This document shows, piece by piece, positions 47,992 to 63,410 of a stretch of 64,000 nt of DNA; within the stretch, counting starts at the first letter, position 1; the number at the start of each line of letters is the position of its first letter. Origin of the DNA: Acuticoccus yangtzensis (GTDB lineage: Bacteria > Pseudomonadota > Alphaproteobacteria > Rhizobiales > Amorphaceae). Under the pieces are notes generated by a model. The model searched no databases. It saw only the letters and a program-made list of their open reading frames with translations, and was not told where the DNA came from. Location of the stretch: NCBI RefSeq assembly GCF_001927245.1, contig NZ_MJUX01000002.1, positions 310,001 through 374,000 of the forward strand, written 5' to 3'. The position numbers were made by a program, and so were the translations under genes.

Positions 47992-48479
47992 AGGCATACT
48001 CCACACGGTTCATCGCTCGGACTTCGTGGTGCAACAAGCCGGAACCTCGTCCTTGGGTTGCTGCCGGAACGCGGCAAGCTGCTATCCGGCGTGGGCCGGG
48101 TCATGCATGCGCCGCTGCACCAGAACGCCTTATGCCCGAGCGCCGCACCGCGGTCGGGTACGCAAAGGGATGGCCCGGCCGCTCCTGCGAGCGTTCCCCC
48201 TCCTTTCGGATCGGGGACACGAGCCGGAAGTGCGCCCGCCGCGCCGCCCGGCCGGGTGCACCGTCATTGCGGGACGACCATCGCCGCAACGCCGCAACGT
48301 GGCGGACCGGCGGCGTGGAGGCGCGGCCGGATCCGCTGATCCGCAGCGTGGCGGCGCGGCCACGCTCGTCCGCCGCATGCGCAACGCGGATTGACCTCCC
48401 GCCGCCCAACCCCACCTTGCCGCCAAGGCCGAAATACAGAGGGCCGGGCCGAACGGGACGGACAAGGAGAGGAGCGGGC
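47992..48479. other. Intergenic stretch without a supported gene
   Basis: About 490 bp between two divergent genes. Frames here are arginine/proline-rich shadows typical of high-GC non-coding DNA. A promoter for the RTX-like gene is expected around 48000-48070, but no clear box is seen. Confidence 0.45.
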
Positions 48480-48790: not shown

Positions 48791-48880
48791 AAACGAGCCC
48801 ACACCGCCGCCGGGCCGCTCATACGAGCCGCACCCGGCGGCGGGTGGCTCATGCCAGCCGCACCCGGCGGCGGGTGCCGA
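48791..48880. repeat. Three degenerate 30-bp tandem units with an internal palindrome
   Basis: Units begin near 48793, 48823 and 48853. The last two share the exact 21-mer core AGCCGCACCC-GGCGGCGGGTG at 48826 and 48856. Each core contains the palindrome CACCCG-GCGG-CGGGTG. The last unit overlaps the final codons of the TRAP fusion gene, so the repeat may serve as its 3'-end hairpin array. Confidence 0.65.
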
Positions 48881-50708
48881 GCGTCCGCGCCATGACGAGA
48901 AGCGCCAGGCCCGCGAACGGCGCCACCGGATTCGGCCAAACCGCAAGACCGATCGCCGACAGGTAAAGCACGAGGTCGACCGCCCGCGCGCCCGTCAGCC
49001 GCGCCCCCGAAAGCACACCCGGTATCGCCGCCACCAGCACCAGGCCGGACGCCACCGCATCGGCCACCGCAACAGGCCCGCCGCGCATCGTCATGCCGGG
49101 ATAGAGGAGCAGCATGAACGGCACCACGTAGGTGACCGCGCCGAGCCGCACCGCCTCCATCGCCGTCGCCAGCCAGCCCGTGTTGGCGATCCCCGCCCCG
49201 ACGAACACCGCCACGCACACAGGCGGCGTGATCACCGAGATCGTCGCGAAATAGAACACGAAGAGATGCGCCGCCAGCGGGTCGATGCCGATGCGGATCA
49301 TCGCCGGGGCCAGCACCGCCGCCACCAGCACATAGGCCGCCGTGGTCGGCAGCCCCATGCCCATGACGAGGCACACCAGCGCCACGATCAGCGCCACCAG
49401 CACCGCCGAGTCCCCCGCCAGCGACACGATCATCGACGACAAGGTGACGCCGATCCCGGTGAGGTTGATCATCGCCACCAGGATCTGCGCCCCGGCGAGC
49501 AGCACGCCGATGATGACGAGGCCCTTGCCCGCGTCGGTGAAGCCGGCCAGCACGCGCCGCGCCATCTCGCGCGGCGGCAGGCGCATCGCCTGCGTCGCCA
49601 CGAAGGCGATCAGCAGCCCGGCGATGCCGTAGAACGCCGCCGTGGTGATCGACCGGCCGATCAGGATGCCGCCGATCAGCCCGCCCAGCGCCGCCACGAT
49701 CGGCAGCACCCTGCGCGGCGCGCCGATCGTCCCCCACGCCGGCAGCTCGTCGGCCGGAACCAGCGCCAGGTCCCGCTTCACGGCGACGATGTGGACCGTG
49801 ACGAACACCGAGAGATAGAAGAGCAGCGCCGGGATCAGCGCCGCCAGCATCACCGTCACGTAGGAGACGCCGAGGATTTCGGCCATCACGAAGGCGGCGG
49901 CGCCCATGATCGGCGGGGCGATCTGCCCGCCGGTCGACGCGACCGCCTCCACCGCCGCCGCGAAGGGCCGCGGATAGCCGAGACGGATCATCATCGGGAT
50001 GGTGAAGTTGCCCGTGGTGGCGACGTTGGCGACCGCCGAGCCGGAAATCATCCCGAAGAGGCCCGACGCGATGGTAGCGATCTTCGCCGCGCCGCCCGGC
50101 TGGCGTCCGCCCAGGCGCATGGCGAGGTCCATGAAGGTCTGCCCGCCGCCGGTGTGAAGCAGCAGCGCGCCGAAGAGGACGAAGGTGGCGACCACCGTCG
50201 CCGCCACCCCCGTCAGCATGCCCCACACGCCGAGGTCGCCCAGAAACAGCGTCTCGGTGACGAAGGCGGTGTCGAAACCGCGGTGGCCGAGCGGGGCCGG
50301 CAGCAGGTGGCCGAAGAGCGCGTAGCCGAGCCCCGCCGCCACCATCGCCGGGAAGACGATGCCCACCGTGCGCCGCCCGAACTCCAGCACCGCCACAACG
50401 AGGCCGAGCGTCAACGCCTTGTCGAGCGTGGTCGCCCACGGGAGCGCGGCCATGATCGTCTCGTAATTGACGACGATGTAGCCCGCCGCGGCCATCGTGA
50501 GGCCGACGAGGCAAAGGTCGATCGCGACGCCGAGAGGGCGCCACGGCTTGCCCTCCCCCAGCGGATAAAGCGCCGCCCCCAGGGCGATCACCAGCGCCAG
50601 AAATACGGCACGCTGGATCATCCCCTCATAGGGGCCGGCCGCGGCGGTGTAGAAGACGAAGGCCCCGACCAGGAGGGCAAGGCCCGTCTGCACGCGCTCC
50701 AGAGTCAT
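48849..50708 (-). CDS. TRAP transporter fused permease (4TM/12TM, TAXI-type)
   Basis: 619 aa. The DctQ-like four helices are joined to a DctM-like part, the arrangement of TAXI-type TRAP systems. Signatures: PLGHRGFDTAFVTETLFLGDLGVWGML before the DctM part, GLFGMISGSAVANVATTGNFTIPMMIRLGY, VASTGGQIAPPIMGAAAFVMAE and MGLPTTAAYVLVAAVLAPAM. It starts five bases after the TAXI binding-protein stop. Its last codons lie in a 30-bp tandem repeat. Transports an organic anion, perhaps a carboxylate that is then CoA-activated. Confidence 0.93.
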   Translation of the reverse strand: MTLERVQTGLALLVGAFVFYTAAAGPYEGMIQRAVFLALVIALGAALYPLGEGKPWRPLGVAIDLCLVGLTMAAAGYIVVNYETIMAALPWATTLDKALTLGLVVAVLEFGRRTVGIVFPAMVAAGLGYALFGHLLPAPLGHRGFDTAFVTETLFLGDLGVWGMLTGVAATVVATFVLFGALLLHTGGGQTFMDLAMRLGGRQPGGAAKIATIASGLFGMISGSAVANVATTGNFTIPMMIRLGYPRPFAAAVEAVASTGGQIAPPIMGAAAFVMAEILGVSYVTVMLAALIPALLFYLSVFVTVHIVAVKRDLALVPADELPAWGTIGAPRRVLPIVAALGGLIGGILIGRSITTAAFYGIAGLLIAFVATQAMRLPPREMARRVLAGFTDAGKGLVIIGVLLAGAQILVAMINLTGIGVTLSSMIVSLAGDSAVLVALIVALVCLVMGMGLPTTAAYVLVAAVLAPAMIRIGIDPLAAHLFVFYFATISVITPPVCVAVFVGAGIANTGWLATAMEAVRLGAVTYVVPFMLLLYPGMTMRGGPVAVADAVASGLVLVAAIPGVLSGARLTGARAVDLVLYLSAIGLAVWPNPVAPFAGLALLVMARTLGTRRRVRLA

Positions 50709-50713
50709 CCCGT

Positions 50714-51688
50714 CTACTCGGCTTTGAGCTTCGCCGGGATCGCGATCCCAGCCTCCTCATAGTAGCGCGCCGCCCCCGGATGCAGCGGGATGGTGCCATA
50801 TTGCATCGTCAACGCGCCGAGATCGGCGTCCTTCAGGGTGGAGAGGGCGGCCGCCTGCGCGTCCACGTTCTCCATCACCGTCTTGACGATCTGGTAGGCC
50901 ACCTCGTCGTCCATCGTCGACGGCGCGCCGACACCGACGCCGAAGCTCCACGTGGTGTAGGCGGGCACCCCGTCCGACGCGCCGGCGGGAACGTCGACCA
51001 CGGAAATGTCCGGCATGTCGGCGCGGATCTTGTCGGCCTGCTCGGGCGTCAGCCCCAGAATCGCGATGTCGGTGAAGGTGGCGATGTCCATGGTCGACGC
51101 GTCGACCTTGTTGCCGGTGCCGGACTTCACGTAGCCCGCGAGGCGGTTGTCCTTGATCGCGTCGGCCATGTCGGTGGTGGAGCCGCGCACATAGTCGGCG
51201 GTGAGGCCGAGCGTGTCGAACACGGCTTCCGTCGTGGTCTCGGTGGCCGAACCGCGGATGCCGGGGTTGAAGCGCATCCCCTTCAGCCCCTCCAGCGAGG
51301 TGACGCCGCTGTCGGTGCGCACCACCACGTTCTGCGGCGCGCCGGTGTAGATCCACAAGAGCCGCAGGTCCTGCGCCCGGCCCTCGAACTCGTGCGTTCC
51401 GGCGAAGGCGTGCTGGGCGACGTTGGAGGTGATGATGCCGAGGTCCATCTGGCCGCGCTCCATGCGGCGGATGTTGTCGACCGCGGCGCCCGTTTCCACC
51501 ACGTTGGCGCGGATCCCGTCCGTCTTCTCGTTCAGAAGCTGGCCGACGGCGACGATGTAGCCATAATGGCTCGACGAGGCCGAGGTGGAGCCGAACAACA
51601 GGTTCGCCTCCTGCGCGGCGGCCGGTTCGGCGGCCCCCATGGCCACCACAGCGGCACCGGCGATGATCGTCAGGACGTTCTTTTTCAT
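50714..51688 (-). CDS. TAXI-family TRAP transporter solute-binding protein
   Basis: 324 aa. Signal peptide MKKNVLTIIAGAAVVAMGAAEPAAA, cleavage before QEANLLFGS. TAXI features: FGSTSASSSHYGYIVAVGQLLN near the N-terminus, ETGAAVDNIRRMERGQMDLGI, and GIRGSATETTTEAVFDTLGL. A strong ribosome site (GGGAGGGAC) precedes ATG 51688. It delivers substrate to the fused permease downstream. The CoA-transferase upstream is in the same direction, 109 bp away. Confidence 0.93.
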   Translation of the reverse strand: MKKNVLTIIAGAAVVAMGAAEPAAAQEANLLFGSTSASSSHYGYIVAVGQLLNEKTDGIRANVVETGAAVDNIRRMERGQMDLGIITSNVAQHAFAGTHEFEGRAQDLRLLWIYTGAPQNVVVRTDSGVTSLEGLKGMRFNPGIRGSATETTTEAVFDTLGLTADYVRGSTTDMADAIKDNRLAGYVKSGTGNKVDASTMDIATFTDIAILGLTPEQADKIRADMPDISVVDVPAGASDGVPAYTTWSFGVGVGAPSTMDDEVAYQIVKTVMENVDAQAAALSTLKDADLGALTMQYGTIPLHPGAARYYEEAGIAIPAKLKAE

Positions 51689-51797
51689 AGGTCCCTCCCC
51701 TTCATTTTTGTTGTCGTTTCAGCCGCGGAGGACGTTGCCTCGCGAAGGCCGGGGTGGTCGCCGCAGCATTCCGCGGCAACCCTTGCGTAGGCGGCTC

Positions 51798-53024
51798 TTA
51801 TTGCGCCGCCTTCATGGGCCGCGCCCACAGCTCCGCGCCGGGGTCGGCGACGCGCGCCGCACCGCTGGCGACCAGTCGCGCGGCCTCCGCCTCACCATAG
51901 CCGAGGCGGCTCAGGATCGCGCGGGTATGTTCGCCCAGAAGCGGCGGCGGCAGGCCGGGCTCGGCCTCGCCCGCCGCAGCGGGAAGCGGCAGATCGGGCG
52001 CCGCGAAGTCGTAACCCGCGAAGGCGAAATCGGTAAATTTGGGCGGCGTCGTGGCCTGCGGCGCGCTCAGCACGCGGTCGGCGGACAGCACCTCGGTGTA
52101 GCCCGCCCCGGCGGCCGACAGGCGGGCGGCCAGCGCATCGTAGCTGAGGGCCGCGACGGCGGCGCGCACGGTGGCCTCCACCTCCTCGCGGCGGCGGCGG
52201 CGCTGGCGCAGCGTCGCCAGCTCGGGATCCTCCGTCAGCCCCGCCGCGCGCACGAAGCGCGCCCAATGGTCGTCGGTCAGCATCACGAGGTAGATCCACC
52301 GCCCGTCCGCCGTCTCGTAGGCGCCGTAGCCGGGGATCGAGAATTCCGGCGACGGCTCCGTCTCCGGCCGGCCCAGAAGCTGCGATTTCAGCTGCACGCC
52401 GACGAGATCGCGCGCCGCCACGTGGAGCCCCGTCTCGTAGAGGCCGAGTTCCAGGTTGCGGCGGCCGGGTTCGTCGTTCCCCGCCAGGAGCGCACCCAGG
52501 ATGGCGATCACCGCGTAAGACCCGGCGAACTGGTCGTGATAGGACGGGCCGAGCCGCGACGGGCGCCCGTCGATCCGGTTGGAGTACATCACCCCCGTCG
52601 CCGCCTCGGCGATCGGGTTGGAGGCGGGCTCGTCGGCGAGCGGCCCTTCGCCATAGCCTTTGATGTGGCAGTAGACGACTGCCGGGTTGGCCGCCGCCGC
52701 CCGCTCGTAGGTGAGGCCGAGCCGCCGCGCCGCACCGGGCGACATGTTGTGCAGCACGATGTCGGCGCCGGCGAGAAGCCGGTCCAAAATCGCCTGTCCC
52801 TCGTCGTTGCGCAGGTCCAGGCACAGGCTTTCCTTGCCGCGGCTATAGGCGATGTATGTGCCGCTGGGGCCGCCGCGCACCAGCCCCCGCGTGGTGTCGC
52901 CGCCGGGCGCTTCGATCTTGATGACGGTGGCGCCGAGCTGGCTGAGGATGTGCGCGGCGAACGGCGCGGCGATCATGCTGCCGAGTTCGACCACGGTGCG
53001 GCCGGCGAGGATTCCAGGCGCCAT
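51798..53024 (-). CDS. Class III (CaiB/BaiF) CoA-transferase
   Basis: 408 aa. N-terminal GRTVVELGSMIAAPFAAHILSQLGATVIKIE is classical. HNMSPGAARRLGLTYE and the probable catalytic Asp in SYHDQFAGSYAVIAIL follow. Start ATG 53024 with AGGAG seven bases upstream. First gene of a CoA-transferase/TAXI-SBP/TRAP operon, divergent from the liv-type operon with two ATGCAT elements between. Likely transfers CoA to an imported organic acid. Clearly a different paralogue from the CoA-transferases at 18.5 kb and 63.4 kb. Confidence 0.9.
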   Translation of the reverse strand: MAPGILAGRTVVELGSMIAAPFAAHILSQLGATVIKIEAPGGDTTRGLVRGGPSGTYIAYSRGKESLCLDLRNDEGQAILDRLLAGADIVLHNMSPGAARRLGLTYERAAAANPAVVYCHIKGYGEGPLADEPASNPIAEAATGVMYSNRIDGRPSRLGPSYHDQFAGSYAVIAILGALLAGNDEPGRRNLELGLYETGLHVAARDLVGVQLKSQLLGRPETEPSPEFSIPGYGAYETADGRWIYLVMLTDDHWARFVRAAGLTEDPELATLRQRRRRREEVEATVRAAVAALSYDALAARLSAAGAGYTEVLSADRVLSAPQATTPPKFTDFAFAGYDFAAPDLPLPAAAGEAEPGLPPPLLGEHTRAILSRLGYGEAEAARLVASGAARVADPGAELWARPMKAAQ

Positions 53025-53047: not shown

Positions 53048-53061
53048 ATAAAATGCATTAT
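53048..53061. promoter_or_regulatory. ATGCAT-type regulatory element A
   Basis: ATAAAATGCATTAT, centred on palindrome AATGCATT, 24 bp upstream of the CoA-transferase start. On the minus strand it begins ATAATGCAT, identical to the start of elements B and D. Probable site of the GntR protein encoded at 60.7 kb. Confidence 0.55.
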
Positions 53062-53215
53062 CCAAAATCCGACGCAAGCGTTTCTGTTGGAGCAGCACCC
53101 GTCATCGCACTCAGAAACCGCACTCCCCGCCATCTGCGCCCATGTTGATCGCCTAAATCGGGTGGACCGCTCCGACCGGCGGCTCCGCCAACCACCGTGC
53201 CACCTCCACTCACAG

Positions 53216-53231
53216 ATGCATGATGCATTAT
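53216..53231. promoter_or_regulatory. ATGCAT-type regulatory element B
   Basis: ATGCATGATGCATTAT with two ATGCAT cores seven bases apart, immediately upstream of the -35 box of the liv-type operon. Its complement contains ATAATGCATCAT, exactly as in element D. Confidence 0.6.
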
Positions 53232-53235
53232 TTGG

Positions 53236-53264
53236 TTGACGGGAGCCGCGAACCGCCGATAGCC
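53236..53264 (+). promoter_or_regulatory. Candidate promoter of the liv-type operon
   Basis: TTGACG (-35) and a poor -10 (GATAGC with a 16-bp spacer or ATAGCC with 17), ending about 32 bp before the ATG. The -35 is adjacent to element B, so a bound regulator would interfere with polymerase. Confidence 0.45.
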
Positions 53265-53295
53265 TGGCGGAAAATAAAACTGGGAGGATTTGACC

Positions 53296-54507
53296 ATGGG
53301 ACTGCGAAGCGGAACACCACTGCGGCTGTCAGCCGCCATGATCGCCCTGATCACCGGCACGAACCTCGCCGCCGCTCAGGACCCCGGCATCGACACGGCC
53401 AACAAGACCGTCACCGTCGGCGCCTTCACCCCCATCACCGGGCCGGTCCCGTTCTACGCCATCCTCACCCACGCGGCGGACGCCTTCTACCGCAACCTCA
53501 ACGAAAACGGCGGCATCGACGGCTGGACCGTCAACTACGTCACCAAGGACGACGGCTACGAGCCCGCCCGCAGCGTCGCCGTCACCCGCCAGATGGTGGA
53601 CGATGACGGCATCTTCGCCCTCTCCGCCGCCGTCGGCACCGCCACCAACGTCGCCGTCATCCCCTACGCCAAGGAGGCCGGGCTGCCGATGATCAGCCCC
53701 ATCGGCGGCGCCAGCCAGTTCTTCGCCGAGCCGAACATCTTCCCGCTCCTGCCCGACTATGGCTGGTCCGCCGCCTCCAACGTGGACTACGCCGTCAACG
53801 ACCTCGGCCTGCAGAAAGTCGCCCTCCTGTGGGAGAACGACGAGCTCGGCCGCTCCGCCAAACGCGGCTTCGACGCGGTGATGGCCGACCTCAAGCTCGA
53901 GCCGGCCGCCTCCGTCTCCTTCGACGTGAAGACCACCAACTTCGCCCCGCAGATCCGCCGCATCGCCAACTCCGGCGCCGAGGCGGTGATCCTGTTCGGC
54001 TCCAACGCCAACCTCGCCGCGGCGCTGAAGGCGGCCGACCTGCAGGGCGTCGAAACCACCTGGTTCGCGCCCTTCTTCGCGGCCGATCCGTCCACCTACC
54101 GCCTCGCGGGCGATCTGCTGGACGGCGTCTACTTCTCCTCCTGGCTGATGCCCGTCGCCGCCGACGACCCCAACGTCGCCGCCTACCGCGAGTCCATCGC
54201 CGAACATTATCCGGACGATCCGGTCGGCGTGTTCGGCCTCAACGGGTGGAGCAACGCCGCCCTCTTCGCCGCGGGCTTCAAGGCGCTGCTCGACAGCGGC
54301 AACGAGCTGACGCGCGAGAACCTCGTCGCCGCCATGGACACCCTCTCCGACGCCGCCGTCGGCGGGGCGCGCGGCGTCTCCTTCAAACCGGGCGACCACC
54401 GCGGCACCCGGCAGGAAGGCATCATCCAGGCGAAAGACGCCGACTTCGTGCTCGTGAAGGACTTCCGCCCCTACCCGGCCGTGGTCTTCGACGCCCCCGC
54501 CGACTGA
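53296..54507 (+). CDS. Branched-chain-type ABC transporter periplasmic binding protein (LivJ-like)
   Basis: 403 aa. Signal peptide (MGLRSGTPLRLSAAMIALITGTNLAAA, cleavage before QDPGI). Peripla_BP_6 fold: VTVGAFTPITGPVPFYA, DDGYEPARSVAVTRQMV, the interdomain GTATNVAVIPYAKEAGLPMISPIGG and KVALLWENDELGRSAKRG. Start ATG 53296 follows GGAGG eight bases upstream. The liv-type permeases and ATPases lie 1.8 kb downstream after two dehydrogenase genes. The family binds amino acids, but also aromatic and other carboxylates, so the substrate is open. Confidence 0.93.
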   Translation: MGLRSGTPLRLSAAMIALITGTNLAAAQDPGIDTANKTVTVGAFTPITGPVPFYAILTHAADAFYRNLNENGGIDGWTVNYVTKDDGYEPARSVAVTRQMVDDDGIFALSAAVGTATNVAVIPYAKEAGLPMISPIGGASQFFAEPNIFPLLPDYGWSAASNVDYAVNDLGLQKVALLWENDELGRSAKRGFDAVMADLKLEPAASVSFDVKTTNFAPQIRRIANSGAEAVILFGSNANLAAALKAADLQGVETTWFAPFFAADPSTYRLAGDLLDGVYFSSWLMPVAADDPNVAAYRESIAEHYPDDPVGVFGLNGWSNAALFAAGFKALLDSGNELTRENLVAAMDTLSDAAVGGARGVSFKPGDHRGTRQEGIIQAKDADFVLVKDFRPYPAVVFDAPAD

Positions 54508-54551
54508 GCGCGCACCGCCGCAAAGCGCCCACCTTTGCGAACCCGTCCATC

Positions 54552-54573
54552 GGCGCCCCTTCTGCGGGGCGCC
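54552..54573 (+). promoter_or_regulatory. Intercistronic hairpin after the livJ-like gene
   Basis: Perfect 8-bp stem GGCGCCCC / GGGGCGCC with a six-base loop and no T-run, between the binding-protein gene and the SDR gene. Confidence 0.55.
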
Positions 54574-54594
54574 ACCACACTTGCGGAGTCCCCC

Positions 54595-55371
54595 ATGACG
54601 CTCCACCCCTTGAGCGCGCCCCCGCGCCTCGAAGGACAGGTCGCGCTCGTTACCGGCGCGGCCGGCGGCATCGGCCGCGCCACGGCACTGACCCTGGCCG
54701 AAGCCGGCGCCACCGTGATCGCCACCGACATCGTCGACACCGCCGACTATGGTGCCGCCGGATCGGGCGCCCCCAACGCCGGCGGCACCATCCACTACCG
54801 CCGCTACGACGTCACCTCCGCCGCCGAGACCGAGGCGCTGATCGCCGACGTCAGCGAGACGCACGGCGGCATCGACATCCTCATCCTGTGCGCCGGCACC
54901 ATCTCCCACCGCCCGCTCACCGAGGCGAGCGACGACGAGTGGCAGGCCATGCTCGCCGTCAACCTCTTCGGCGTCGTCAACCCGGTGCGCGCCGTGTTCC
55001 CGAAGATGCAGGCGCGCGGCTACGGCAAGATCGTCGCCCTCGGCTCCATCGCCGCCAAGATCGGCGGCGTCGCGTCCGGCCCCGCCTACGTCGCCGCCAA
55101 GTCCGCCGTCCACGGCCTCATGAAGTGGGTCGCCAAGGCGGGCGCGTCCTCCGGCGTCTATGCCAGCGTCGTCGCCCCCGGCCCGGTGGAAACGCCGATG
55201 TGGCAGACCGTCACCCAGCGCGCCGCCCCCTCCGCCAACGGCAACGTGCCCCTCGGCCGCTACGGCCAGCCCGAAGACATCGCCCAGGCGATCCTCTTCC
55301 TCTCCTCCCCGCAATCCAACTGGATCACCGGCACCGTTCTCGACGTGAACGGCGGCATGTTGATGGACTGA
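54595..55371 (+). CDS. Short-chain dehydrogenase/reductase (3-oxoacyl-reductase-like)
   Basis: 258 aa classical SDR: TGAAGGIGRATALTLAEAG (cofactor loop), DILILCAGTI in place of the usual NNAG, catalytic Ser in LGSIAAK, and YVAAK. C-terminal ITGTVLDVNGGMLM is typical. Substitution of NNAG by LCAG is unusual but occurs. It probably oxidises a hydroxy-acid intermediate of the pathway served by the surrounding transporter. Ten bases separate it from the next dehydrogenase gene. Confidence 0.85.
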   Translation: MTLHPLSAPPRLEGQVALVTGAAGGIGRATALTLAEAGATVIATDIVDTADYGAAGSGAPNAGGTIHYRRYDVTSAAETEALIADVSETHGGIDILILCAGTISHRPLTEASDDEWQAMLAVNLFGVVNPVRAVFPKMQARGYGKIVALGSIAAKIGGVASGPAYVAAKSAVHGLMKWVAKAGASSGVYASVVAPGPVETPMWQTVTQRAAPSANGNVPLGRYGQPEDIAQAILFLSSPQSNWITGTVLDVNGGMLMD

Positions 55372-55380
55372 GGTGCGATC

Positions 55381-56337
55381 ATGACCACCCCGACGAGCCC
55401 CACCCCGAACACCCCCCTCGCGATCGGCTTCATCGGCCTCGGCGTCATGGGCGGGCCGATGTGCCGCAACGTCGCCACCAAACACCCCGGACCCGTCACC
55501 GCCTTCGACCTGTCGGCCGACGCCCTCGCCGCGCTGTCGGACACCAAGGCCGCGCCCGCCGGCAGCATCGAAGACCTCGCCGCCGCGGCGGACGTCATCT
55601 TCCTGTCGCTCCCCGGCGGGCCGCAGGTGGAGGCCGTCGCGCTCGGCCCCGTCGCCGCCGCCGCGCGTGCCGGTGCGATCGTGGTCGACCTCTCCACCAC
55701 CACCGTCGCCGCCGCGCGCACCGTCGCCGCCGGCCTCGCCGAACGCGGCGTCCTCTTCGCCGACGCCCCGGTCGCGCGCACCAGAGAGGCGGCGCAGAAG
55801 GGCGCCCTCTCCATCATGGTCGGCGCGTCGCCCGCCGTGTTCGAGACGATCTCCCCGCTGCTCGCCTACATGGCGACCGACATCACCCACGGCGGCGACG
55901 TCGGCGCAGGCCAGGTGCTGAAGCTCGTCAACAATATGCTGGTGTTCCAGAACACCGTGGCCGTCGCCGAGATGATGGTGCTGGCCGAGCGCGCCGGCGT
56001 CTCCGGCGCGGTCATGCTGGAAGCGGTCTCCAAAGGCTCCGGCGACAGCTTCGTCCTGCGCAACCACGCCGCCAAGGCGATGCTGCCGCGCGACTTCCCG
56101 GCCCGCTCCTTCCCGCCCGAGTACGTGCTGAAGGACATCTCCTACGTGTTCGACCTCGCGGCCGGCACCGGGACCGCCCTCCCCTCCGCCGCCGCCGCCC
56201 GCCGCTACTACGAAGCCGCCGCCGCCACCGACCTTTCCGGCCGCTACTTCCCCGGCGTCATCCGCCTCGTCGAAAACGACACCTTCGCGGACACAGCGCC
56301 ACCATCAGAGGCGCCCAACTCAGAGGCGGCGGAATGA
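55381..56337 (+). CDS. Beta-hydroxyacid dehydrogenase (3-hydroxyisobutyrate dehydrogenase family)
   Basis: 318 aa. Rossmann motif IGFIGLGVMGGPMCRNV (about 15-31), substrate-binding DAPVARTREAAQKGALSIMVGA (the usual DAPVSGG is changed to DAPVARTR), and catalytic Lys in GAGQVLKLVNNMLVFQ. Oxidises a beta-hydroxy acid to a semialdehyde or keto acid with NAD(P). The DAPVARTR variant suggests a substrate different from hydroxyisobutyrate, as in sulfolactaldehyde or tartronate-semialdehyde relatives. The livH-like gene starts within its stop codon (ATGA). Confidence 0.87.
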   Translation: MTTPTSPTPNTPLAIGFIGLGVMGGPMCRNVATKHPGPVTAFDLSADALAALSDTKAAPAGSIEDLAAAADVIFLSLPGGPQVEAVALGPVAAAARAGAIVVDLSTTTVAAARTVAAGLAERGVLFADAPVARTREAAQKGALSIMVGASPAVFETISPLLAYMATDITHGGDVGAGQVLKLVNNMLVFQNTVAVAEMMVLAERAGVSGAVMLEAVSKGSGDSFVLRNHAAKAMLPRDFPARSFPPEYVLKDISYVFDLAAGTGTALPSAAAARRYYEAAAATDLSGRYFPGVIRLVENDTFADTAPPSEAPNSEAAE

Positions 56338-57236
56338 ACGCCGTCCTCGACAGCCTCGCCTTCGACCTCTTCCCGCTCGTCTGGTCGGGCATCGTCACCG
56401 GCTGCCTCTATGCGCTGGGCGCGCTCGGCCTCGTGATGATCTTCAAATGCTCGCGCGTGGTGAACTTCAGTCACGGCAACGTCGCGGGGTTCGCTGCCTT
56501 CCTCGTCTACGGCTTCACGTCGGGGCTGCTGCTGGCCGTCTCCTGGGGCGTCGCGGTGCTGCTGGCGGCGGTCTTCATCGTCGCCATCGCCTTCCTCACC
56601 TACGCGCTGATCTCGCCCCTCATCCAGACGTCGGACCTCACCGCCACCATCGCCACGCTCGGCGTCGGCCTCATCGTCCAGGGCGCGACGCTGCTCCTGT
56701 TCGGGGCCGACATCGTCAGCCTGGACCTGCCGGTGCCGCGCTTCGCCACCTCCGTGCTCGGCCTTCGGATCACCGGCTACGACCTCACCGTGCTTTCGGT
56801 CGCCGTCGTCACCATCGGCGCGCTGTTCCTCGTCATCGACTTCACCAAACTCGGCATCGCCTTCCGCGCCATCTCGTCGAACGCCTTCGCGGCGGAGGTC
56901 TGCGGCCTCAACCTCGCCCGCGTACAGGTGTTCGCATGGTCGGTCGCGGCGGGGCTCGGCGTCATCGGCGCGCTTCTCATCGTGCCCACCACCTTCCTCA
57001 GCGCCACCACCGTCGCCGCCTTCATGCTGCAGGCATTCGCCGCGGCGGTGATCGGCGGGTTCGCCAGCCTTCCGGGCAGTCTGATCGGCGGAATCCTGAT
57101 CGGCATCCTCATGAACCTCTTCACCTTCTACGTGTCGCCGGAATACGCCTCCACCTTCCTGCTCGTCGTCATCCTGGCGGCGCTCAACGTGTTCCCGAAC
57201 GGCATCCTGGCGCCGGTGCGGGGCAGCCGTGTCTGA
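56334..57236 (+). CDS. Branched-chain-type ABC transporter permease (LivH-like)
   Basis: 300 aa, about eight membrane helices. The family opening GIVTGCLYALGALGLVMIFKCSRVVNFSHGNVAGFAAFL and the later GIAFRAISSNAFAAEVCGLNLARVQVFAW are typical LivH. Start ATG 56334 overlaps the dehydrogenase stop. Pairs with the LivM-like protein that starts inside its 3' end. Confidence 0.92.
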   Translation: MNAVLDSLAFDLFPLVWSGIVTGCLYALGALGLVMIFKCSRVVNFSHGNVAGFAAFLVYGFTSGLLLAVSWGVAVLLAAVFIVAIAFLTYALISPLIQTSDLTATIATLGVGLIVQGATLLLFGADIVSLDLPVPRFATSVLGLRITGYDLTVLSVAVVTIGALFLVIDFTKLGIAFRAISSNAFAAEVCGLNLARVQVFAWSVAAGLGVIGALLIVPTTFLSATTVAAFMLQAFAAAVIGGFASLPGSLIGGILIGILMNLFTFYVSPEYASTFLLVVILAALNVFPNGILAPVRGSRV

Positions 57237-58206
57237 CGCGCTCGCCTCCCCCGCCGCCGCCCTCCCGGTGCCGCCCGGCCGCGTCCTCGCGCGCGGCGCC
57301 ACGGTGCTCCTGGTGATGGGCCTCGCCGCCCTCCCCTTCGCGGTGCAGGGCTCGTGGATCTACGCCCTCGGCATCACCTTCGCCAACGCCGTCGCCGTGC
57401 TCTCGGTCAGCGTCCTCGTGCGCTATGGCGGCGAGGTGTCCATCGGCCACGGCTTCTTCGCAGCGGTCGGCGCCTACACGGTGGCCATCATGGAGCAGCG
57501 CCTCGGCGTGTCGCTCCTCGTGTCGCTGCCCGTCGGCGTGGCGCTCGGCGTCGTCAGCGGCATCGCCTTCGCCTGGCCGTCGCGCAACATCTCCGGCATC
57601 TACCTCGCCGTCTCCACCATGGCGCTCGCCCTCGCTCTGCCGGAGCTGATCAACAACGCCGCCTCCTTCACCGGCGGCTACCAGGGGCTCTACGTCGCCG
57701 AGCCGCTCGTCCCCGGCCTCTCCATGAGCCTGCAGCGCTACTACGTGCCGCTCGCCGCCCTCGTGCTGGTCGCGCTGGCGCTCGGCCAGTTCCGCCGCTC
57801 GCGCCAGGGTATGGCGATGCTCCTGGTGCGCACCCACCCCGCCGCAGCCGACGCCTTCGGCACGCCGCGCGTGTGGGCCCGCGTCGCCGTCATGGGGATC
57901 AGCTGCGGTGTCGCCGCGCTCGCCGGGTGCGTGCTCGCCTTCGCCAGCTCCACCGTGTCGCCCAGCGGCTTCACCTTGTGGACGTCCATCTTCTTCCTCG
58001 TCGGCTCGGTGGTCAGCGTCTACGGCCTCAGCCTGCCGCGCGCCCTCGTCGGCGGTGCCTTCCTCACCCTGGTGCCGCAGCTTCTGTCGGCGTCCGGAGC
58101 GTGGATCCCGGTGATGTACGGCGTCGCGCTGCTGGCGGTCATTCTCGCCGGCCACTTCCTGCCGCGCCTGTCCGCCCGCATTCGCCGACAGGGAGGGACC
58201 GCATGA
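57229..58206 (+). CDS. Branched-chain-type ABC transporter permease (LivM-like)
   Basis: 325 aa, about nine to ten membrane helices. LivM-typical GGEVSIGHGFFAAVGAYTVA, FAWPSRNISGIYLAVSTMALALALPEL and a loop near RTHPAAADAFGTPRVWARVAVMGISCGVAALAGCVLAF. GTG start overlaps the livH-like gene by eight bases. Its stop is overlapped by the livG-like start (ATGA). Confidence 0.92.
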   Translation: MSDALASPAAALPVPPGRVLARGATVLLVMGLAALPFAVQGSWIYALGITFANAVAVLSVSVLVRYGGEVSIGHGFFAAVGAYTVAIMEQRLGVSLLVSLPVGVALGVVSGIAFAWPSRNISGIYLAVSTMALALALPELINNAASFTGGYQGLYVAEPLVPGLSMSLQRYYVPLAALVLVALALGQFRRSRQGMAMLLVRTHPAAADAFGTPRVWARVAVMGISCGVAALAGCVLAFASSTVSPSGFTLWTSIFFLVGSVVSVYGLSLPRALVGGAFLTLVPQLLSASGAWIPVMYGVALLAVILAGHFLPRLSARIRRQGGTA

Positions 58207-59021
58207 GCCTCGCCAGCATCGCGCCAGCCAGCGTCACCCCCGCCGGCACCAACCCAGCACCGGCGCTGACCGGCCAGGGCGTCGCCCTCGCCTTCGGCGG
58301 CATCAAGGTGCTCCAGGGGCTCGACGTCACCTTCCGCGCCGGCGAAATCACCGGCCTCATCGGCCCCAACGGCGCCGGCAAGACCAGCCTCTTCAACTGC
58401 CTCACCGGCGCCTACCGGCCGACCGGCGGCACCATCCACTACGGCACCGCGCCGCTGGACGGCCTCTCCCCCGCCGAGCGCGCCCGCAAAGGCATCGTCC
58501 GCTCGTTCCAGACCGTCGCCTTGTGCCCCGACCTCACCGTCGCCGAAAACGTCATGATGGGCCTCGCCCGCGACTACCGGGCCGGGTGGGCGAGCGCCTT
58601 CCTCCCCCTCGCCCGCGGCCGCCGCGAACGCGCCGCCATGATGGACGGCGCCATGGCCGCCCTCACCACGCTCGGCCTGGAGCGCACCGCGTCGGCCTAT
58701 CCCGGCGCGCTTCCCCCCGGCACCCAGCGCCTCGTCGAGATCGCCCGCGCCATCGCCGGCAAGCCGTCCGTGCTGCTGCTCGACGAGCCCGCCGCCGGCC
58801 TCAACACCGCCGAAACGCGCGAACTCACCCGCGCGCTCCGCCGCCTCGCCGCGCCGGACCTCGTCATGGTCGTCGTCGAGCACGACATGGACCTCGTGAT
58901 GTCGATCTGCGACCGCATCACCGTCCTCAACTTCGGCACCATCGTCGCATCCGGCGCGCCGGACGCCATCCGCCGCGACCCCGACGTTCAGCGCATCTAC
59001 CTGGGGACCGAGGATGACTGA
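58203..59021 (+). CDS. Branched-chain-type ABC transporter ATP-binding protein (LivG-like) with altered signature motif
   Basis: 272 aa with a Pro/Ala-rich N-terminal extension of about 20 residues. Walker A GPNGAGKTS (54-62), Walker B VLLLDEPAAGLN with the typical LivG end, and H-loop VVEHDMDLVM. The ABC signature reads LPPGTQRLVEIARAI (170-184) where LivG proteins normally have LSYGQQRLVEIARAL, so the conserved Ser and first Gln are replaced. The ATPase is probably still active, but the change is noteworthy. The C-terminal DPDVQRIYLG matches the family. Overlaps the livF-like gene by eight bases. Confidence 0.9.
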   Translation: MSLASIAPASVTPAGTNPAPALTGQGVALAFGGIKVLQGLDVTFRAGEITGLIGPNGAGKTSLFNCLTGAYRPTGGTIHYGTAPLDGLSPAERARKGIVRSFQTVALCPDLTVAENVMMGLARDYRAGWASAFLPLARGRRERAAMMDGAMAALTTLGLERTASAYPGALPPGTQRLVEIARAIAGKPSVLLLDEPAAGLNTAETRELTRALRRLAAPDLVMVVVEHDMDLVMSICDRITVLNFGTIVASGAPDAIRRDPDVQRIYLGTEDD

Positions 59022-59748
59022 TCTCCTGCGCATCGACCACCTGTCCGTGTTCTACGGCGCCGCCGCGCAGGCCGTGGAGGACGTCTCGTTCAGCGTCCCC
59101 GGCAACGCGGTGGTGGCGCTGCTGGGCGCCAACGGGGCGGGCAAGTCGTCCATCATGAAGGCGGTCGCGGGGCTCATCCCCGGTCGCGGCGCCATCACCT
59201 TCGACGGCGCGCGGATCGACGGCACCACCACCCGCGCCCGCGTCGCCCGCGGCATCGTCTACGTGCCGGAGGGACGCGCCGTCGTCGGGGACCTCACCGT
59301 GCGCGAAAACCTCGTCCTCGGCGGCTACACCGTGCCCGGTCCCGCCCGGCGCAGCCGCATGGAGATGGTGCTGGACCTCTTTCCCGAGATCGCCGGCAAA
59401 GCGAACGGCGGCGCCTGGCGCTTGTCGGGCGGAGAGCAGCAGATGCTCGCCATCGGCCGCGGGCTTATGGCCGGGCCGCGGCTCCTGCTGCTGGACGAGC
59501 CGTCCCTCGGCCTCGCCCCTCTCCTCGTGCGCCGGGTCTTCGACAGGCTCGCCACCATCCGCGCCGAGAGCGGCCTCGCCATCCTCCTGGTGGAGCAGAA
59601 CCTTGCCATGACCATGCGCCTTGCCGACGAGATCCACTTCCTGCGCGGCGGCCGCCTGATCGGCCACAAACGCACCGACGAGCTGCGCGACGGTGCCGCC
59701 CGCCAGCATGCCGTCGACACCTTCCTGGGCGCGGCGGCGGCGGAGTGA
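59014..59748 (+). CDS. Branched-chain-type ABC transporter ATP-binding protein (LivF-like)
   Basis: 244 aa. Walker A GANGAGKSS (about 38-46), LivF-typical YVPEGRAVVGDLTVRENL, signature RLSGGEQQMLAIGRGLM, and Walker B LLLLDEPSLGLAPLLV. Its signature is normal, unlike that of the LivG-like partner. The lactonase-like gene begins just after its stop codon. Confidence 0.93.
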   Translation: MTDLLRIDHLSVFYGAAAQAVEDVSFSVPGNAVVALLGANGAGKSSIMKAVAGLIPGRGAITFDGARIDGTTTRARVARGIVYVPEGRAVVGDLTVRENLVLGGYTVPGPARRSRMEMVLDLFPEIAGKANGGAWRLSGGEQQMLAIGRGLMAGPRLLLLDEPSLGLAPLLVRRVFDRLATIRAESGLAILLVEQNLAMTMRLADEIHFLRGGRLIGHKRTDELRDGAARQHAVDTFLGAAAAE

Positions 59749-59753
59749 GCACG

Positions 59754-60614
59754 ATGACACACACCCAAAACGGCGATTGGGAGATCCACGCCATCCGCTA
59801 CGCCGTCAACCCGACGCGCACCCGCGGCCAGAACTTCATCCTCGAAGCCAGCCCCGCCGAGCCGCTCACCCTGGACTTCTACTCCTGGGTGCTCATGCGC
59901 GGCGACGAGGTGATCGTCGTCGATACCGGAATGGACCCCGCCAAGGCGGAGCACCACGGCCACACCATGCTGGTCAATCCGGTGGATGCGCTGCGTTCCC
60001 TCGGCGTCGACCCGGAGGCGGTCACCACCGTGATCCTCACCCACGCCCACTACGACCATACCGGCCACCTGAACGCCTTCCCCAACGCCCAATTCCACAT
60101 GCAGGCCGAGGAGATGGCCTTCATCACCGGCCCGTTCATGGCCCGCCCCTGGTTCCGCCGCGCCTACGAGGTGGACGAGATCCTCACCCTGGTGGAGCTT
60201 CTCCACGCAGGACGCCTGACGCTCCACGGGCGCGAGGAGACGATTGCGGACGGAGTCACCGTCCACTGGGTCGGCGGCCACACGGCGGGGCAGGAGATCA
60301 TCACCGTCGCCACCAGCCGCGGCACCGTCGTCCTAGCCTCCGACGCGCTGCATTATTACGAGGAATATGAGCGCGGCGTCCCCTTCGCCATCGTCGTCAG
60401 CTCGGCCGACATGATCGCCGCCCACGACACCATCCGCCGGCTGGCGGCGAGCGACGACCACGTGGTGCCCGCACACGACCCGCGCGTGGCCGAACTCTAC
60501 CCCCCGTCGCGCCCCGACCTCGCCGGGCAGGTGATGCGGCTCGACCTGCCGCCCGCCCTCTCGCTCACGCCGTCATCCACCCCGGCGGCCCCCGGCAAAG
60601 GATGGGCCGCGTGA
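59754..60614 (+). CDS. Metallo-beta-lactamase-fold hydrolase, N-acyl-homoserine-lactonase-like
   Basis: 286 aa. Dinuclear metal motif THAHYDHTGH (HxHxDH), later HWVGGHTAGQE, ASDALHYYEE and VPAHDP, the set seen in AHL-lactonase-type MBL proteins. They open lactone rings; some act on quorum signals, others on metabolic lactones. Its position at the end of a transporter/dehydrogenase operon argues for a catabolic lactone rather than quorum quenching. Start ATG 59754 has GGAG eight bases upstream; GTG 59745, overlapping the livF-like stop, is the alternative. Confidence 0.86.
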   Translation: MTHTQNGDWEIHAIRYAVNPTRTRGQNFILEASPAEPLTLDFYSWVLMRGDEVIVVDTGMDPAKAEHHGHTMLVNPVDALRSLGVDPEAVTTVILTHAHYDHTGHLNAFPNAQFHMQAEEMAFITGPFMARPWFRRAYEVDEILTLVELLHAGRLTLHGREETIADGVTVHWVGGHTAGQEIITVATSRGTVVLASDALHYYEEYERGVPFAIVVSSADMIAAHDTIRRLAASDDHVVPAHDPRVAELYPPSRPDLAGQVMRLDLPPALSLTPSSTPAAPGKGWAA

Positions 60615-60683
60615 TGATGCTCAATTGCGCAACCACGGTCCCTTCGGGCAATGACGATCATGCTTCAGAAGGACCAAGAACGC

Positions 60684-61319
60684 ATGATGCATCAAACCAA
60701 GGAGGAGCGGGTCGCGGACTATCTGCGCGAGGGGATCATCTCCGGCCGCCTTCCGCGCGGGTCGAAGCTGAAGCAGGCCGAAATCGCGGCGGTGATCGGC
60801 ACCAGCATCACCCCGGTGCGCGAGGCGATCAAACTCTTGGAGGCGGAGGGCTTCGTCCACGCCTCGTCCCACAAGGGCGCGATCGTCGCCGAATTCGACA
60901 TCAACGCGACCGAAGAGATCGTCGACCTCAGGGTGATCATGGAGTGCCGCCTTGCGCTGAAGGCCATGGCGCGCCTGACCGAGGCGCAGATCGCCGAACT
61001 CGTCGCCCTGCAGAAGGAGCTGGAGGCGGCGACCGCGCGGGCCGACAAGGACGCGGTGCGCGGCATCAACTACCGCTTCCACGAGCTGATCTACATGGCC
61101 GCCGATCTGCCGATGACCTTGCGGTTCACCCGCACGCTCTGGGCCCGCTACCCGTTCGACCTCATCAACAAGGTGGAAAGCCGCATCGACCGCGCGTCGG
61201 ACGAGCACCGGGCGATGCTCTCGGCCATCATCTCGCGCGACGAGGCGGCTCTCATCGCCGCGCTGCGCACCCACATCCGCGCCGGCTGGGAGGAGTTCAA
61301 GGCAAGCTACAAGCCCTGA
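60684..61319 (+). CDS. GntR-family (FCD-type) transcriptional regulator, probable master regulator of the 51-64 kb cluster
   Basis: 211 aa from the preferred start. Winged HTH (KEERVADYLREGIISGRLPRGSKLKQAEIAAVIGTSITPVREAIKLLEAEGF) then an FCD domain with all three metal histidines (YRFHELIY, DEHRAMLSAI, RTHIRAGWEEF). Start: ATG 60684 follows AGAAGGA; upstream in-frame ATGs (60651, 60660) have no ribosome site. The palindrome TGATGCATCA at 60685-60694 overlaps this start codon, which suggests autoregulation. Related ATGCAT elements occur in front of the divergent operons at 53.0-53.2 kb and the dehydratase gene at 62.0 kb. Confidence 0.88.
   Translation: MMHQTKEERVADYLREGIISGRLPRGSKLKQAEIAAVIGTSITPVREAIKLLEAEGFVHASSHKGAIVAEFDINATEEIVDLRVIMECRLALKAMARLTEAQIAELVALQKELEAATARADKDAVRGINYRFHELIYMAADLPMTLRFTRTLWARYPFDLINKVESRIDRASDEHRAMLSAIISRDEAALIAALRTHIRAGWEEFKASYKP
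60685..60694. promoter_or_regulatory. ATGCAT-type regulatory element C
   Basis: Perfect palindrome TGATGCATCA overlapping the preferred start codon of the GntR gene. Its complement shares ATGCATCAT with elements B and D. Probably autoregulatory. Confidence 0.5.
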
Positions 61320-61398
61320 GGGGCGCTTGCCGGCTCCATCCGGGCGCAGCGGCCACCACCGGCCGTCCCCTCTGCCGCCCCGATCTATGGAGCCTTCA

Positions 61399-61977
61399 AT
61401 GACGACCAATTCGATCCTGCTCGTCATGGACATGATGAACGACCTCGTCCACCCGGAAGGAATGGGCGCGGCCACCTACGCCGTCCAATGCCGCGAGCGC
61501 GGCGTCTATGCCGCCACCGCCACCGCGATCGCCCGCGCCCGCGCCGCCGGGATCATGGTCGGCTACGTGCGCGTCGGCTTCTCGCCGTCCTATGCGGAGT
61601 GTCCGCCGGGCTCGCCGGTGTTCTCCAAGGCGCGTGACAACGGCGTCTTCACCCTCGGCACCTGGGGCACGGAGGTCTTCGCCGACTTCGCGCCGCAGGA
61701 GGGCGACCCCGACATCGTCAAGCACCGCGTCAGCCCGTTCTACGGCACCAAGCTGGAGCCGCTGCTGCGCGCGCGCTCCATCGGCCGGCTGATCCTCACG
61801 GGCGTCTCCACAAACGGCGTGGTGTCGGCGGCGGTGCGCGAGGGGCACGACCGGGACTACGCCTGCGTCATCCTCGAGGACTGCTGCGCCGGGGCGACCG
61901 CCGAAGAGCACGAACACGCGATGTCCGGCCTCAAACGCTACGCCACGGTGACCACCGCGGACGCATTCCCCACCTGA
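61399..61977 (+). CDS. Isochorismatase-fold hydrolase lacking the usual catalytic cysteine
   Basis: 192 aa. Cysteine-hydrolase (isochorismatase-like) fold with Asp11 in LVMDMMNDLVHPEG and Lys108 in DIVKHRVSPFYGT, two members of the normal Asp-Lys-Cys triad. At the cysteine position the sequence is LTGVSTNGVVSAAV (135-142), where amidases read like GVATNVCVE. Val141 thus replaces the nucleophile, as in true isochorismatases such as PhzD. It is therefore unlikely to be an amidase and may hydrolyse an enol ether or use the fold differently. ATG 61399 has GGAG six bases upstream. Lies between the GntR gene and the dehydratase. Confidence 0.82.
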   Translation: MTTNSILLVMDMMNDLVHPEGMGAATYAVQCRERGVYAATATAIARARAAGIMVGYVRVGFSPSYAECPPGSPVFSKARDNGVFTLGTWGTEVFADFAPQEGDPDIVKHRVSPFYGTKLEPLLRARSIGRLILTGVSTNGVVSAAVREGHDRDYACVILEDCCAGATAEEHEHAMSGLKRYATVTTADAFPT

Positions 61978-61991
61978 TAATGCATCATTAT
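61977..61991. promoter_or_regulatory. ATGCAT-type regulatory element D
   Basis: ATAATG-CAT-CATTAT: perfect six-base arms around CAT, starting at the last base of the preceding stop codon. It is the best-formed of the five related elements and lies upstream of the dehydratase gene. Confidence 0.6.
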
Positions 61992-62057
61992 TGCGGTCGG
62001 CGCGTACAAATCGACCGTTAGCCGGCCAAAACACGCCTGGTACGCCGAACGGACCCG

Positions 62058-62090
62058 TTGACCCGCCCTACAAAGAATGCATTCTATATC
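62058..62090 (+). promoter_or_regulatory. Candidate promoter with ATGCAT-type element E
   Basis: TTGACC (-35, 62058-62063), then the perfect palindrome AGAATGCATTCT (62074-62085) covering the expected -10 position (ATTCTA at a 17-bp spacer, or TATATC slightly later). A regulator bound here would block the dehydratase/CoA-transferase transcript. About 100 bp of leader follows before the TTG start. Confidence 0.5.
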
Positions 62091-62189: not shown

Positions 62190-63410
62190 TTGAGCACCTT
62201 CGACACCATCGAAAAGCCGAAACACGACGTCGGCGGCGCCCCCGCCGAGGGCCTGATCACCGACGAGGCGATCGCCAAGGCGCGCGACATGATCGGCCTG
62301 CAGCTCCGCCCCGAGGGCCCCTACCTGCAGGACGCAACGCCCGACACACTGCGCAACTGGTGCAACGGCATCGGCGACCTCAACCCGCTCTACCGCGACC
62401 TCGAATATGGCCGCCTCAGCCGCTACGGGACCCAGCTCGCCCACCCCATGTTCCCGATGGCCTTCGGCTGGATCGGCCGCACCCGCTGGGGCCTTCCCGG
62501 CGTCCACGGCTTCTACGCCGGCAACGACTGGGAACTCTTCCGCCACATCCGCCCCGGCGACCGCATCAGCGCCATCGAACGCGTCGTCGGCGTCGAAGTG
62601 AAGGAGTCGAAGTTCTCCGGCCGGCTCGTGCTGCAATATGTCGAGGCGAGCTACACCAACCAGCGCGGCGAACTCGTCGCCCGCGCGCTCGGCACCTGCA
62701 CCCGGCACGAGCGCAAGGCCGCCCGCGATGCCGGCAAGTACAAGGACATCAAGACCCACGAATACACGCCCGAAGACTACGACAAGATCGATGAGGCGAT
62801 CATGCGCGAGGATGAGCGCATGCGCGGCGCCAACGTGCGCTACTTCGAGGACGTGACCGAGGGCGAGACGCTGGACCCCATCGTGCGCGGGCCGCTGTCT
62901 CTGATGGACACCATGGGCTTCCTCGTCGGCTGCGGGCGCGGCCACACCCACGGCGTCGTCTTCAAGGCGGCGATGAAACACCCCGGCCACTTCTTCCGTA
63001 ACCCGGAAGCGGGCGGCGGCATCGAGTACACCGGCATCGGCCACCACCGCGAATCGACCGCCAAAGAGGTCGGCGTCCCCGGCGTCTACGACTACGGCCC
63101 GCAGCGGTCGTCGTGGATGGCCTCGCTGGTGACCAACTGGATGGGCGACGCCGCCTTCCTGAAGCGCGTGCGCACCGAGATGCGCCGATTCAACACCATG
63201 GGCGACTGTACCTGGTGCAAGGGCAAGGTGGTGAAGAAGTACATCAAGGACCGCCACGCCCTCGTCGACCTCGAAATCTGGGGCGAGAACCAGCGCGGCG
63301 AGATCACCACGCCGGGCCTTGCCACCGTGGTGCTGCCGTCGCGCGATCCCAGCATCCCCGTCCACTTCGACGGGTCGGGCCTCGACCTCGACCTTCCCGT
63401 CGTGCGCTGA
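62190..63410 (+). CDS. Large MaoC/HTD2-like (FAS1-like dehydratase-domain) hydratase/dehydratase
   Basis: 406 aa, two hotdog halves. The N-terminal half has WCNGIGDLNPLYRD and the substrate-channel AHPMFPMAFGWIGRT; the C-terminal half carries RYFEDVTEGETLDP and GRGHTHGVVFKAAMK. Such long FAS1-like/MaoC proteins hydrate or dehydrate acyl-CoAs, including mesaconyl-CoA-type C5 esters. TTG 62190 has AGGAG six bases upstream and is the likely start. It is followed 15 bp later by a CoA-transferase gene, so the pair probably makes and then hydrates or dehydrates a CoA ester. Confidence 0.85.
   Translation: MSTFDTIEKPKHDVGGAPAEGLITDEAIAKARDMIGLQLRPEGPYLQDATPDTLRNWCNGIGDLNPLYRDLEYGRLSRYGTQLAHPMFPMAFGWIGRTRWGLPGVHGFYAGNDWELFRHIRPGDRISAIERVVGVEVKESKFSGRLVLQYVEASYTNQRGELVARALGTCTRHERKAARDAGKYKDIKTHEYTPEDYDKIDEAIMREDERMRGANVRYFEDVTEGETLDPIVRGPLSLMDTMGFLVGCGRGHTHGVVFKAAMKHPGHFFRNPEAGGGIEYTGIGHHRESTAKEVGVPGVYDYGPQRSSWMASLVTNWMGDAAFLKRVRTEMRRFNTMGDCTWCKGKVVKKYIKDRHALVDLEIWGENQRGEITTPGLATVVLPSRDPSIPVHFDGSGLDLDLPVVR

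Follow-up and report, generated by a model that had tools for sequence, protein, structure and literature searches.

Results

A GntR gene among catabolic operons with four palindromic sites

We analysed a stretch of 64,000 nucleotides from Acuticoccus yangtzensis (assembly GCF_001927245.1, contig NZ_MJUX01000002.1, positions 310,001 to 374,000), here called the window. It contains a gene for a GntR-family regulator, set among genes for CoA-transferases, transporters and dehydratases (Table 1), and short elements centred on ATGCAT. The regulator belongs to the FadR/FCD subfamily by its domains, with Pfam scores of 54 bits for GntR (cut-off 27) and 72.4 bits for FCD (cut-off 24.3). The original prediction held that five ATGCAT-centred elements, A to E, define a GntR regulon. 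All five are present at the predicted positions, and they share nonamers as described: one (ATGCATCAT) is common to B, C and D, and another to A, B and D.

By their sequence, A, B, D and E are all versions of a single palindrome, ATAATGCATTAT; ATGCATCAT was rejected as a consensus since ATAATGCATTAT is better. A position weight matrix (PWM) was built from the cores in two gaps of the orthologous loci described below, with the window left out, and its scores are independent for the window only. In a scan of the 64 kb, B, E, A and D rank first (23.0, 22.9, 21.5 and 20.6), followed by position 2330 (13.4) and C. The match at 2330 (GATGCATTTC) is the top PWM match outside the cluster in the window.

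The argument that such clustering is not expected by chance stands in part. Bare ATGCAT occurs 10 times in the window against 10.67 expected from shuffles, and its rarity was dropped as an argument. The longer words, in contrast, are rare genome-wide and crowded here. In the whole genome (5,043,263 bases), ATAATGCAT has 7 copies and ATGCATCAT has 10, with three of each inside the cluster; an after-the-fact binomial for the 9 kb stretch gives 2e-7 and 7e-7, respectively. Allowing one mismatch, AATGCATTAT returns 23 rows at 19 places, four of them operators A, B, D and E. Outside the cluster the nonamers have 11 exact matches, each of which lies, according to a script, inside an open frame of at least 100 codons, which is weak evidence in GC-rich DNA. 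One outside match (C22:12433) looks intergenic, upstream of an aminotransferase gene.

Table 1. Genes, putative operators and promoter elements of the cluster, in window coordinates.
Feature	Position	Strand	Context	Basis
CoA-transferase/TAXI-TRAP block	48849..53024	-		Pfam for first two genes, reading for permease
TRAP permease	48849-50708	-		named by reading
TAXI-type binding protein	50714-51688	-		Pfam
CoA-transferase, family III	51798-53024	-		Pfam
Operator A (ATAAAATGCATTAT)	53048..53061	none	29 bp from CoA-transferase start, divergent promoter	PWM 21.5
Operator B (ATGCATGATGCATTAT)	53216..53231	none	main core 53223-53228, second core 7 bp before	PWM 23.0
-35 TTGACG of liv-type operon	53236..53241	+		sequence reading; promoter geometry common to 14/16 loci
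Likely -10 TAGCCT of liv-type operon	53260-53265	+		sequence reading
liv-type binding protein, SDR, HIBADH-like dehydrogenase, LivHMGF-like genes, metallo-beta-lactamase-fold hydrolase	53296..60614	+		Pfam for four; LivHMGF by reading
ATTGCGC	60624..60630	none	possible degenerate remnant of the orthologues' gntR-upstream element	position match by eye; no score above threshold
GntR-family regulator with FCD domain	60684..61319 (or start 60651)	+		Pfam GntR 1.3e-14, FCD 6e-20
Element C (TGATGCATCA)	60685..60694	+	coding start of gntR, judged non-operator	PWM 13.1
Isochorismatase-family hydrolase	61399..61977	+		Pfam 5.7e-38
Operator D (ATAATGCATCATTAT)	61977..61991	none	auxiliary site, 97 bp before E	PWM 20.6
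-35 TTGACC of dehydratase operon	62058..62063	+		sequence reading and promoter geometry
Operator E (AGAATGCATTCT)	62074..62085	none	over spacer and expected -10	PWM 22.9
MaoC/FAS1-type dehydratase	62190..63410	+	first gene of the operon	Pfam

The palindrome recurs beside orthologous regulators

A genome-collection scan with the GntR protein gave 15 loci, with relatives 50-78% identical. Adding a pair of congeners (83 and 84%) and a further genome of the order (75%) brings the orthologous loci to 18. Sampling of the class (385 genomes) and the order (397) yielded one new orthologue, L041, already included in this total; L042 repeats L004 (same match coordinates) and was left out of the counts. 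The loci were chosen via the GntR protein, so that clusters without a GntR gene lie outside the sample. Mismatch counts refer to 17 loci, before L041 was added, and the later PWM-based counts to 18.

Gene order is largely kept. A CoA-transferase gene diverges from those for the liv-type binding protein, SDR, HIBADH-like, LivHMGF, lactonase-like, GntR and isochorismatase proteins, which are followed by a dehydratase, two CoA-transferases and a second dehydratase. Locus L014 is cut by a contig end, L007 has its first CoA-transferase elsewhere, and L015 is rearranged and lacks the liv genes. In the window and in L035, the TAXI-TRAP genes come after the first CoA-transferase; in L002, L005, L009 and L010 they are located past the second dehydratase.

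ATAATGCATTAT recurs in the same two gaps, the divergent one and the one before the dehydratase, beside the 18 orthologous GntR loci examined, where the original prediction had proposed to look for it. With at most one mismatch, the 17 loci (335,887 bases) contain 16 matches in the divergent gap, 25 before the dehydratase, one before gntR and three elsewhere. Of the divergent gaps, 11/14 have at least one such site, and of the dehydratase gaps 15/17; with two mismatches the figures rise to 12/14 and 17/17. At the looser threshold the two gaps hold 60 sites, against at most 7 for any of 59 permuted palindromes, and the best of these retains the AATGCATT centre. The PWM detects at least two separated sites in 15/15 divergent gaps and at least one in 18/18 dehydratase gaps, with two or more in 16/18. 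That bare ATGCAT occurs in its expected number in the window could be taken to mean that the sites reflect chance or the general AT-richness of promoters. However, the control patterns, 59 permutations of the palindrome with equal composition and its reversed form, fare far worse, and we give this explanation practically no credence.

Aligned to the window, the gaps of most loci score no better than shuffled DNA, and those of a few, congeners included, somewhat better. In the more distant L015 (50% identity), two motif sites lie between the second dehydratase and first CoA-transferase genes (L015:8574-8736). Since this rearranged locus has its sites in a new gap, the motif appears to follow the regulator and not one gene order. 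Many loci have a further match (AATGCATCAAGATCGA) around position 14,000, which falls inside the gene for the third CoA-transferase and was regarded as coding.

The sites occupy fixed positions in two promoters

Measured from TTGAC, the liv site is centred 9.5 or 10.5 bp upstream in 14 of 16 loci, the window included (operator B, 10.5 bp upstream of TTGACG). In L001 the centre is 21.5 bp downstream of TTGAC, and in L010 no TTGAC was found near any site above threshold. By script, 16 of 19 dehydratase promoters have the site on the -10, with its centre 19.5 to 21.5 bp downstream of TTGAC; for operator E it is 21.5 bp downstream of TTGACC. For L003, L015 and L035, where the script had picked an adjacent site instead, values of +22.5, +20.5 and +21.5, respectively, were read from the sequence. 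The registers of the two promoters differ by ~31 bp, near three turns. Operator A stands, by eye, in the second register relative to a TTGCGT.

With a site covering the -10 of one promoter and a site adjoining the -35 of another, a repressor fits best. Class II activators bind near a position by the -35 such as that of B. The same regulon could thus be served by a protein that activates at least the liv promoter from site B, whose centre ~10 bp upstream of the -35 is held constant in those 14 of 16 loci. However, the dehydratase site covers the spacer and -10 in the loci examined, and the liv site of L001 itself falls downstream of TTGAC, which makes activation unlikely.

Element C is coding sequence

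The claim that the regulator gene carries its own copy of the motif did not survive comparison. ATGCAT occurs at the gntR start in 3 of 18 orthologues (15 checked by script; L003, L011 and L015 by eye), where it arises because Met precedes a conserved His-Gln/Arg-Thr-Lys. We therefore do not regard C as an operator: the sequence codes for Met-His, and its PWM score of 13.1 is below that of the chance match at 2330 and far from the 20.6-23.0 of the other sites. C does have ATGCATCAT in common with B and D and is kept in both congeners with the cluster, as would be expected if it were a fifth operator that provides autoregulation from the start codon; given the coding explanation, this is most improbable.

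A weaker element, for example ATTGCATTAT, lies ~62 bp upstream of gntR in 11 of 17 orthologous loci. The gap of 36 to 69 bp before gntR indicates that the gene probably shares a transcript with the liv genes.

Distribution in whole genomes

In the 13 genomes of L001-L013, the palindrome with at most one mismatch occurs at 56 places, of which 39, counted from coordinates, lie inside the fetched cluster loci. The motif is thus concentrated at the cluster, and the proposed regulon withstands both of the refuting conditions set by the original prediction. The remaining 17 places compare with 8 in all for the reversed pattern in the same genomes, and some of them may be further regulon members. In Sulfitobacter (L009:19997-20085), two perfect ATAATGCATTAT sites, 74 bp apart, precede a succinyl-CoA:acetate CoA-transferase-like gene.

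Outside the window, a distant site at G000:C22:12432 (about 8433 in L040), TTGACGTTATTATGAATGCATTATTC, precedes a gene for a BhcA-like aminotransferase, which scores 437 bits where the cut-off is 650. Its position relative to TTGAC in that promoter resembles that of E. The congeners G003 and G004, both of which possess the regulator, retain the site. G001, with only a 42% homologue, has a different palindrome there, and in G005, with none at the cut-off, a good site stands upstream of a 60% identical gene. Other FCD-type regulator genes adjoin the distant site. It is possible that it represents a distant regulon member or a site of another FCD regulator.

The cluster and its putative pathway

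The cluster encodes three family III CoA-transferases and two MaoC/FAS1-type dehydratases; the dehydratase operon runs on past the part shown with two of the CoA-transferases and the second dehydratase. In 14 of 18 orthologous loci, the second dehydratase is followed by a lyase gene nearest RipC/Ccl (NCBIfam). No lyase was found in L015, L033 and L041 within the DNA examined, and L001 has only a 35% match elsewhere. No lyase adjoins the window's cluster, and lyase homologues of 38-42% are encoded elsewhere in its genome. Directly 3' of the dehydratase operon, the window's genome has genes read as hutC, hutF, hutI, hutH and hutU (L016:6898-13600); at this position orthologous clusters mostly carry a CitE-like lyase.

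The CoA-transferases, dehydratases and RipC/Ccl-like lyase point to a CoA-ester pathway. By gene content, the cluster perhaps serves the catabolism of a branched dicarboxylic acid, possibly entering as a lactone, although the substrate is a guess. Scores fall short of the curated cut-offs for the itaconate Ict-Ich-Ccl proteins: the CoA-transferases reach 122-147 bits against 700 for the mesaconate model, and the L002 lyase 163 against 375 for RipC. The cluster may nevertheless operate in a similar way, but it was not assigned to that pathway.

Beyond the TAXI-TRAP genes, a 596-codon frame (window 46216-48006, - strand) contains GGSGNDT-like repeats, with no Pfam match up to E 0.01.

Discussion

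Taken together, we consider it very probable that an FCD-type GntR repressor controls one CoA-ester catabolic cluster through the ATAATGCATTAT sites A, B, D and E. The predicted regulon thereby holds for four of its five elements, with sites in fixed promoter positions recurring beside orthologous regulators, and loses C. We infer that the GntR protein acts as the local regulator, most likely as a substrate-released repressor. A GntR dimer would bind the palindrome at B, abutting the liv -35, at E, on the dehydratase spacer and -10, and at A, by the start of the divergent CoA-transferase/TAXI-TRAP genes, while D would serve as an auxiliary site. Bound GntR would keep RNA polymerase off until an acid or CoA ester of the pathway, held in the FCD domain, releases it.

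Several observations weigh against this model. Operator B taken alone, centred near -45, is compatible with an activator. The palindrome with at most one mismatch is found nowhere in the L002 genome, nor in the congener G004, where the regulator is present and sites A and B are degenerate (ATGCAC). Conversely, three sites, one of them a perfect ATAATGCATTAT, occur in the congener G006, for which the cut-off used gave no close orthologue. Good single sites in G006 and G005, neither of which has a close orthologue, could also mean that the sites belong to another DNA-binding protein and that the GntR gene is a bystander. Against this, the sites crowd around the GntR gene even in the rearranged L015, albeit in loci found through the GntR protein, and we regard a bystander role as very unlikely.

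Of the second ATGCAT-like cores around 77 orthologue sites, 26 are offset by exactly 7 bp, against at most 2 at any other offset from 6 to 16, a pair of strong sites being counted twice. The 38 distances between operators lean towards a period of 10.5 bp (R 0.54, nominal Rayleigh p 2e-5), with a mean offset of 1.0 bp from whole turns; the 28 distinct distances give R 0.41, p 0.01 and 1.4 bp. The loci in this sample are related and hence not independent, overlapping cores were represented by the better one, and distances of 449 bp and 24 bp are included, so that the periodicity is no more than suggestive. The 7-bp core pairs and the roughly helical spacing hint at possible cooperative binding or looping.

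In kind, this is an ordinary, conserved local regulon, made mildly unusual by its operator and by the arginines that the regulator lacks. It provides an operator, a regulator and a gene set open to testing for a cluster conserved across diverse Alphaproteobacteria, and the identity of the inducer would name the pathway. It is also a natural example in which FadR-type recognition and the residues presumed to read the DNA seem to have changed jointly.

Comparison with known systems

The position of FadR R35 is occupied by Ala, Thr or Gln and that of R45 by Ile in 19 of 19 proteins, in an alignment with a one-residue gap close to R35 and with the L032 row left out. Arginines at these two positions are the usual base contacts, and three other FCD proteins of the same genome retain the one at R45. 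The regulator shares with the FadR/FCD subfamily its GntR HTH and FCD domain as well as an A/T-rich palindrome.

According to Suvorova et al. 2015 (PMC4494728), FadR-subfamily operators usually consist of TKGT/ACMA boxes whose GT and AC are separated by 3 or 2 bases, NanR and BioR being named exceptions. An Arg at position 28, which is FadR R35 when counted from their Ser-7, is tied to the G/C pair, and the family is described as having additional boxes 7-12 nt from the centre. The two-base spacer of one group, TKGT-N2-ACMA, is kept in TAAT-GC-ATTA, as are double sites in divergent gaps and extra boxes at such distances. The difference lies in the boxes, where GT/AC is replaced by AT/AT with the spacing unchanged. 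The altered operator and the missing arginines are a correlation in one orthologue group.

As a tentative and rather doubtful extension, the proteins may define a separate FadR-subfamily operator class, with the two base-reading arginines lost and GT/AC changed to AT/AT. In such a class, dimers assembling on cores 7 bp apart and between helically spaced operators would form a looped complex that shuts three promoters of an undescribed branched-dicarboxylate or lactone pathway. Searches of open-access papers yielded no description of the regulon or motif; the 12-mer turned up in two unrelated papers.

The gene content recalls the Pseudomonas itaconate operon, in which, according to PMC9875883, CoA-transferase, hydratase, C-C lyase, transporter and lactonase genes also stand together; the present cluster differs by its three CoA-transferases, two dehydratases and scores far below the cut-offs. 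A parallel in site arrangement is E. coli NanR, likewise a GntR-type repressor with close, overlapping repeats, to which several dimers bind cooperatively (PMC8012715). In contrast to NanR, with its direct GGTATA repeats and 32-residue N-terminal extension, the regulator described here has a palindromic core and no such extension before the HTH.

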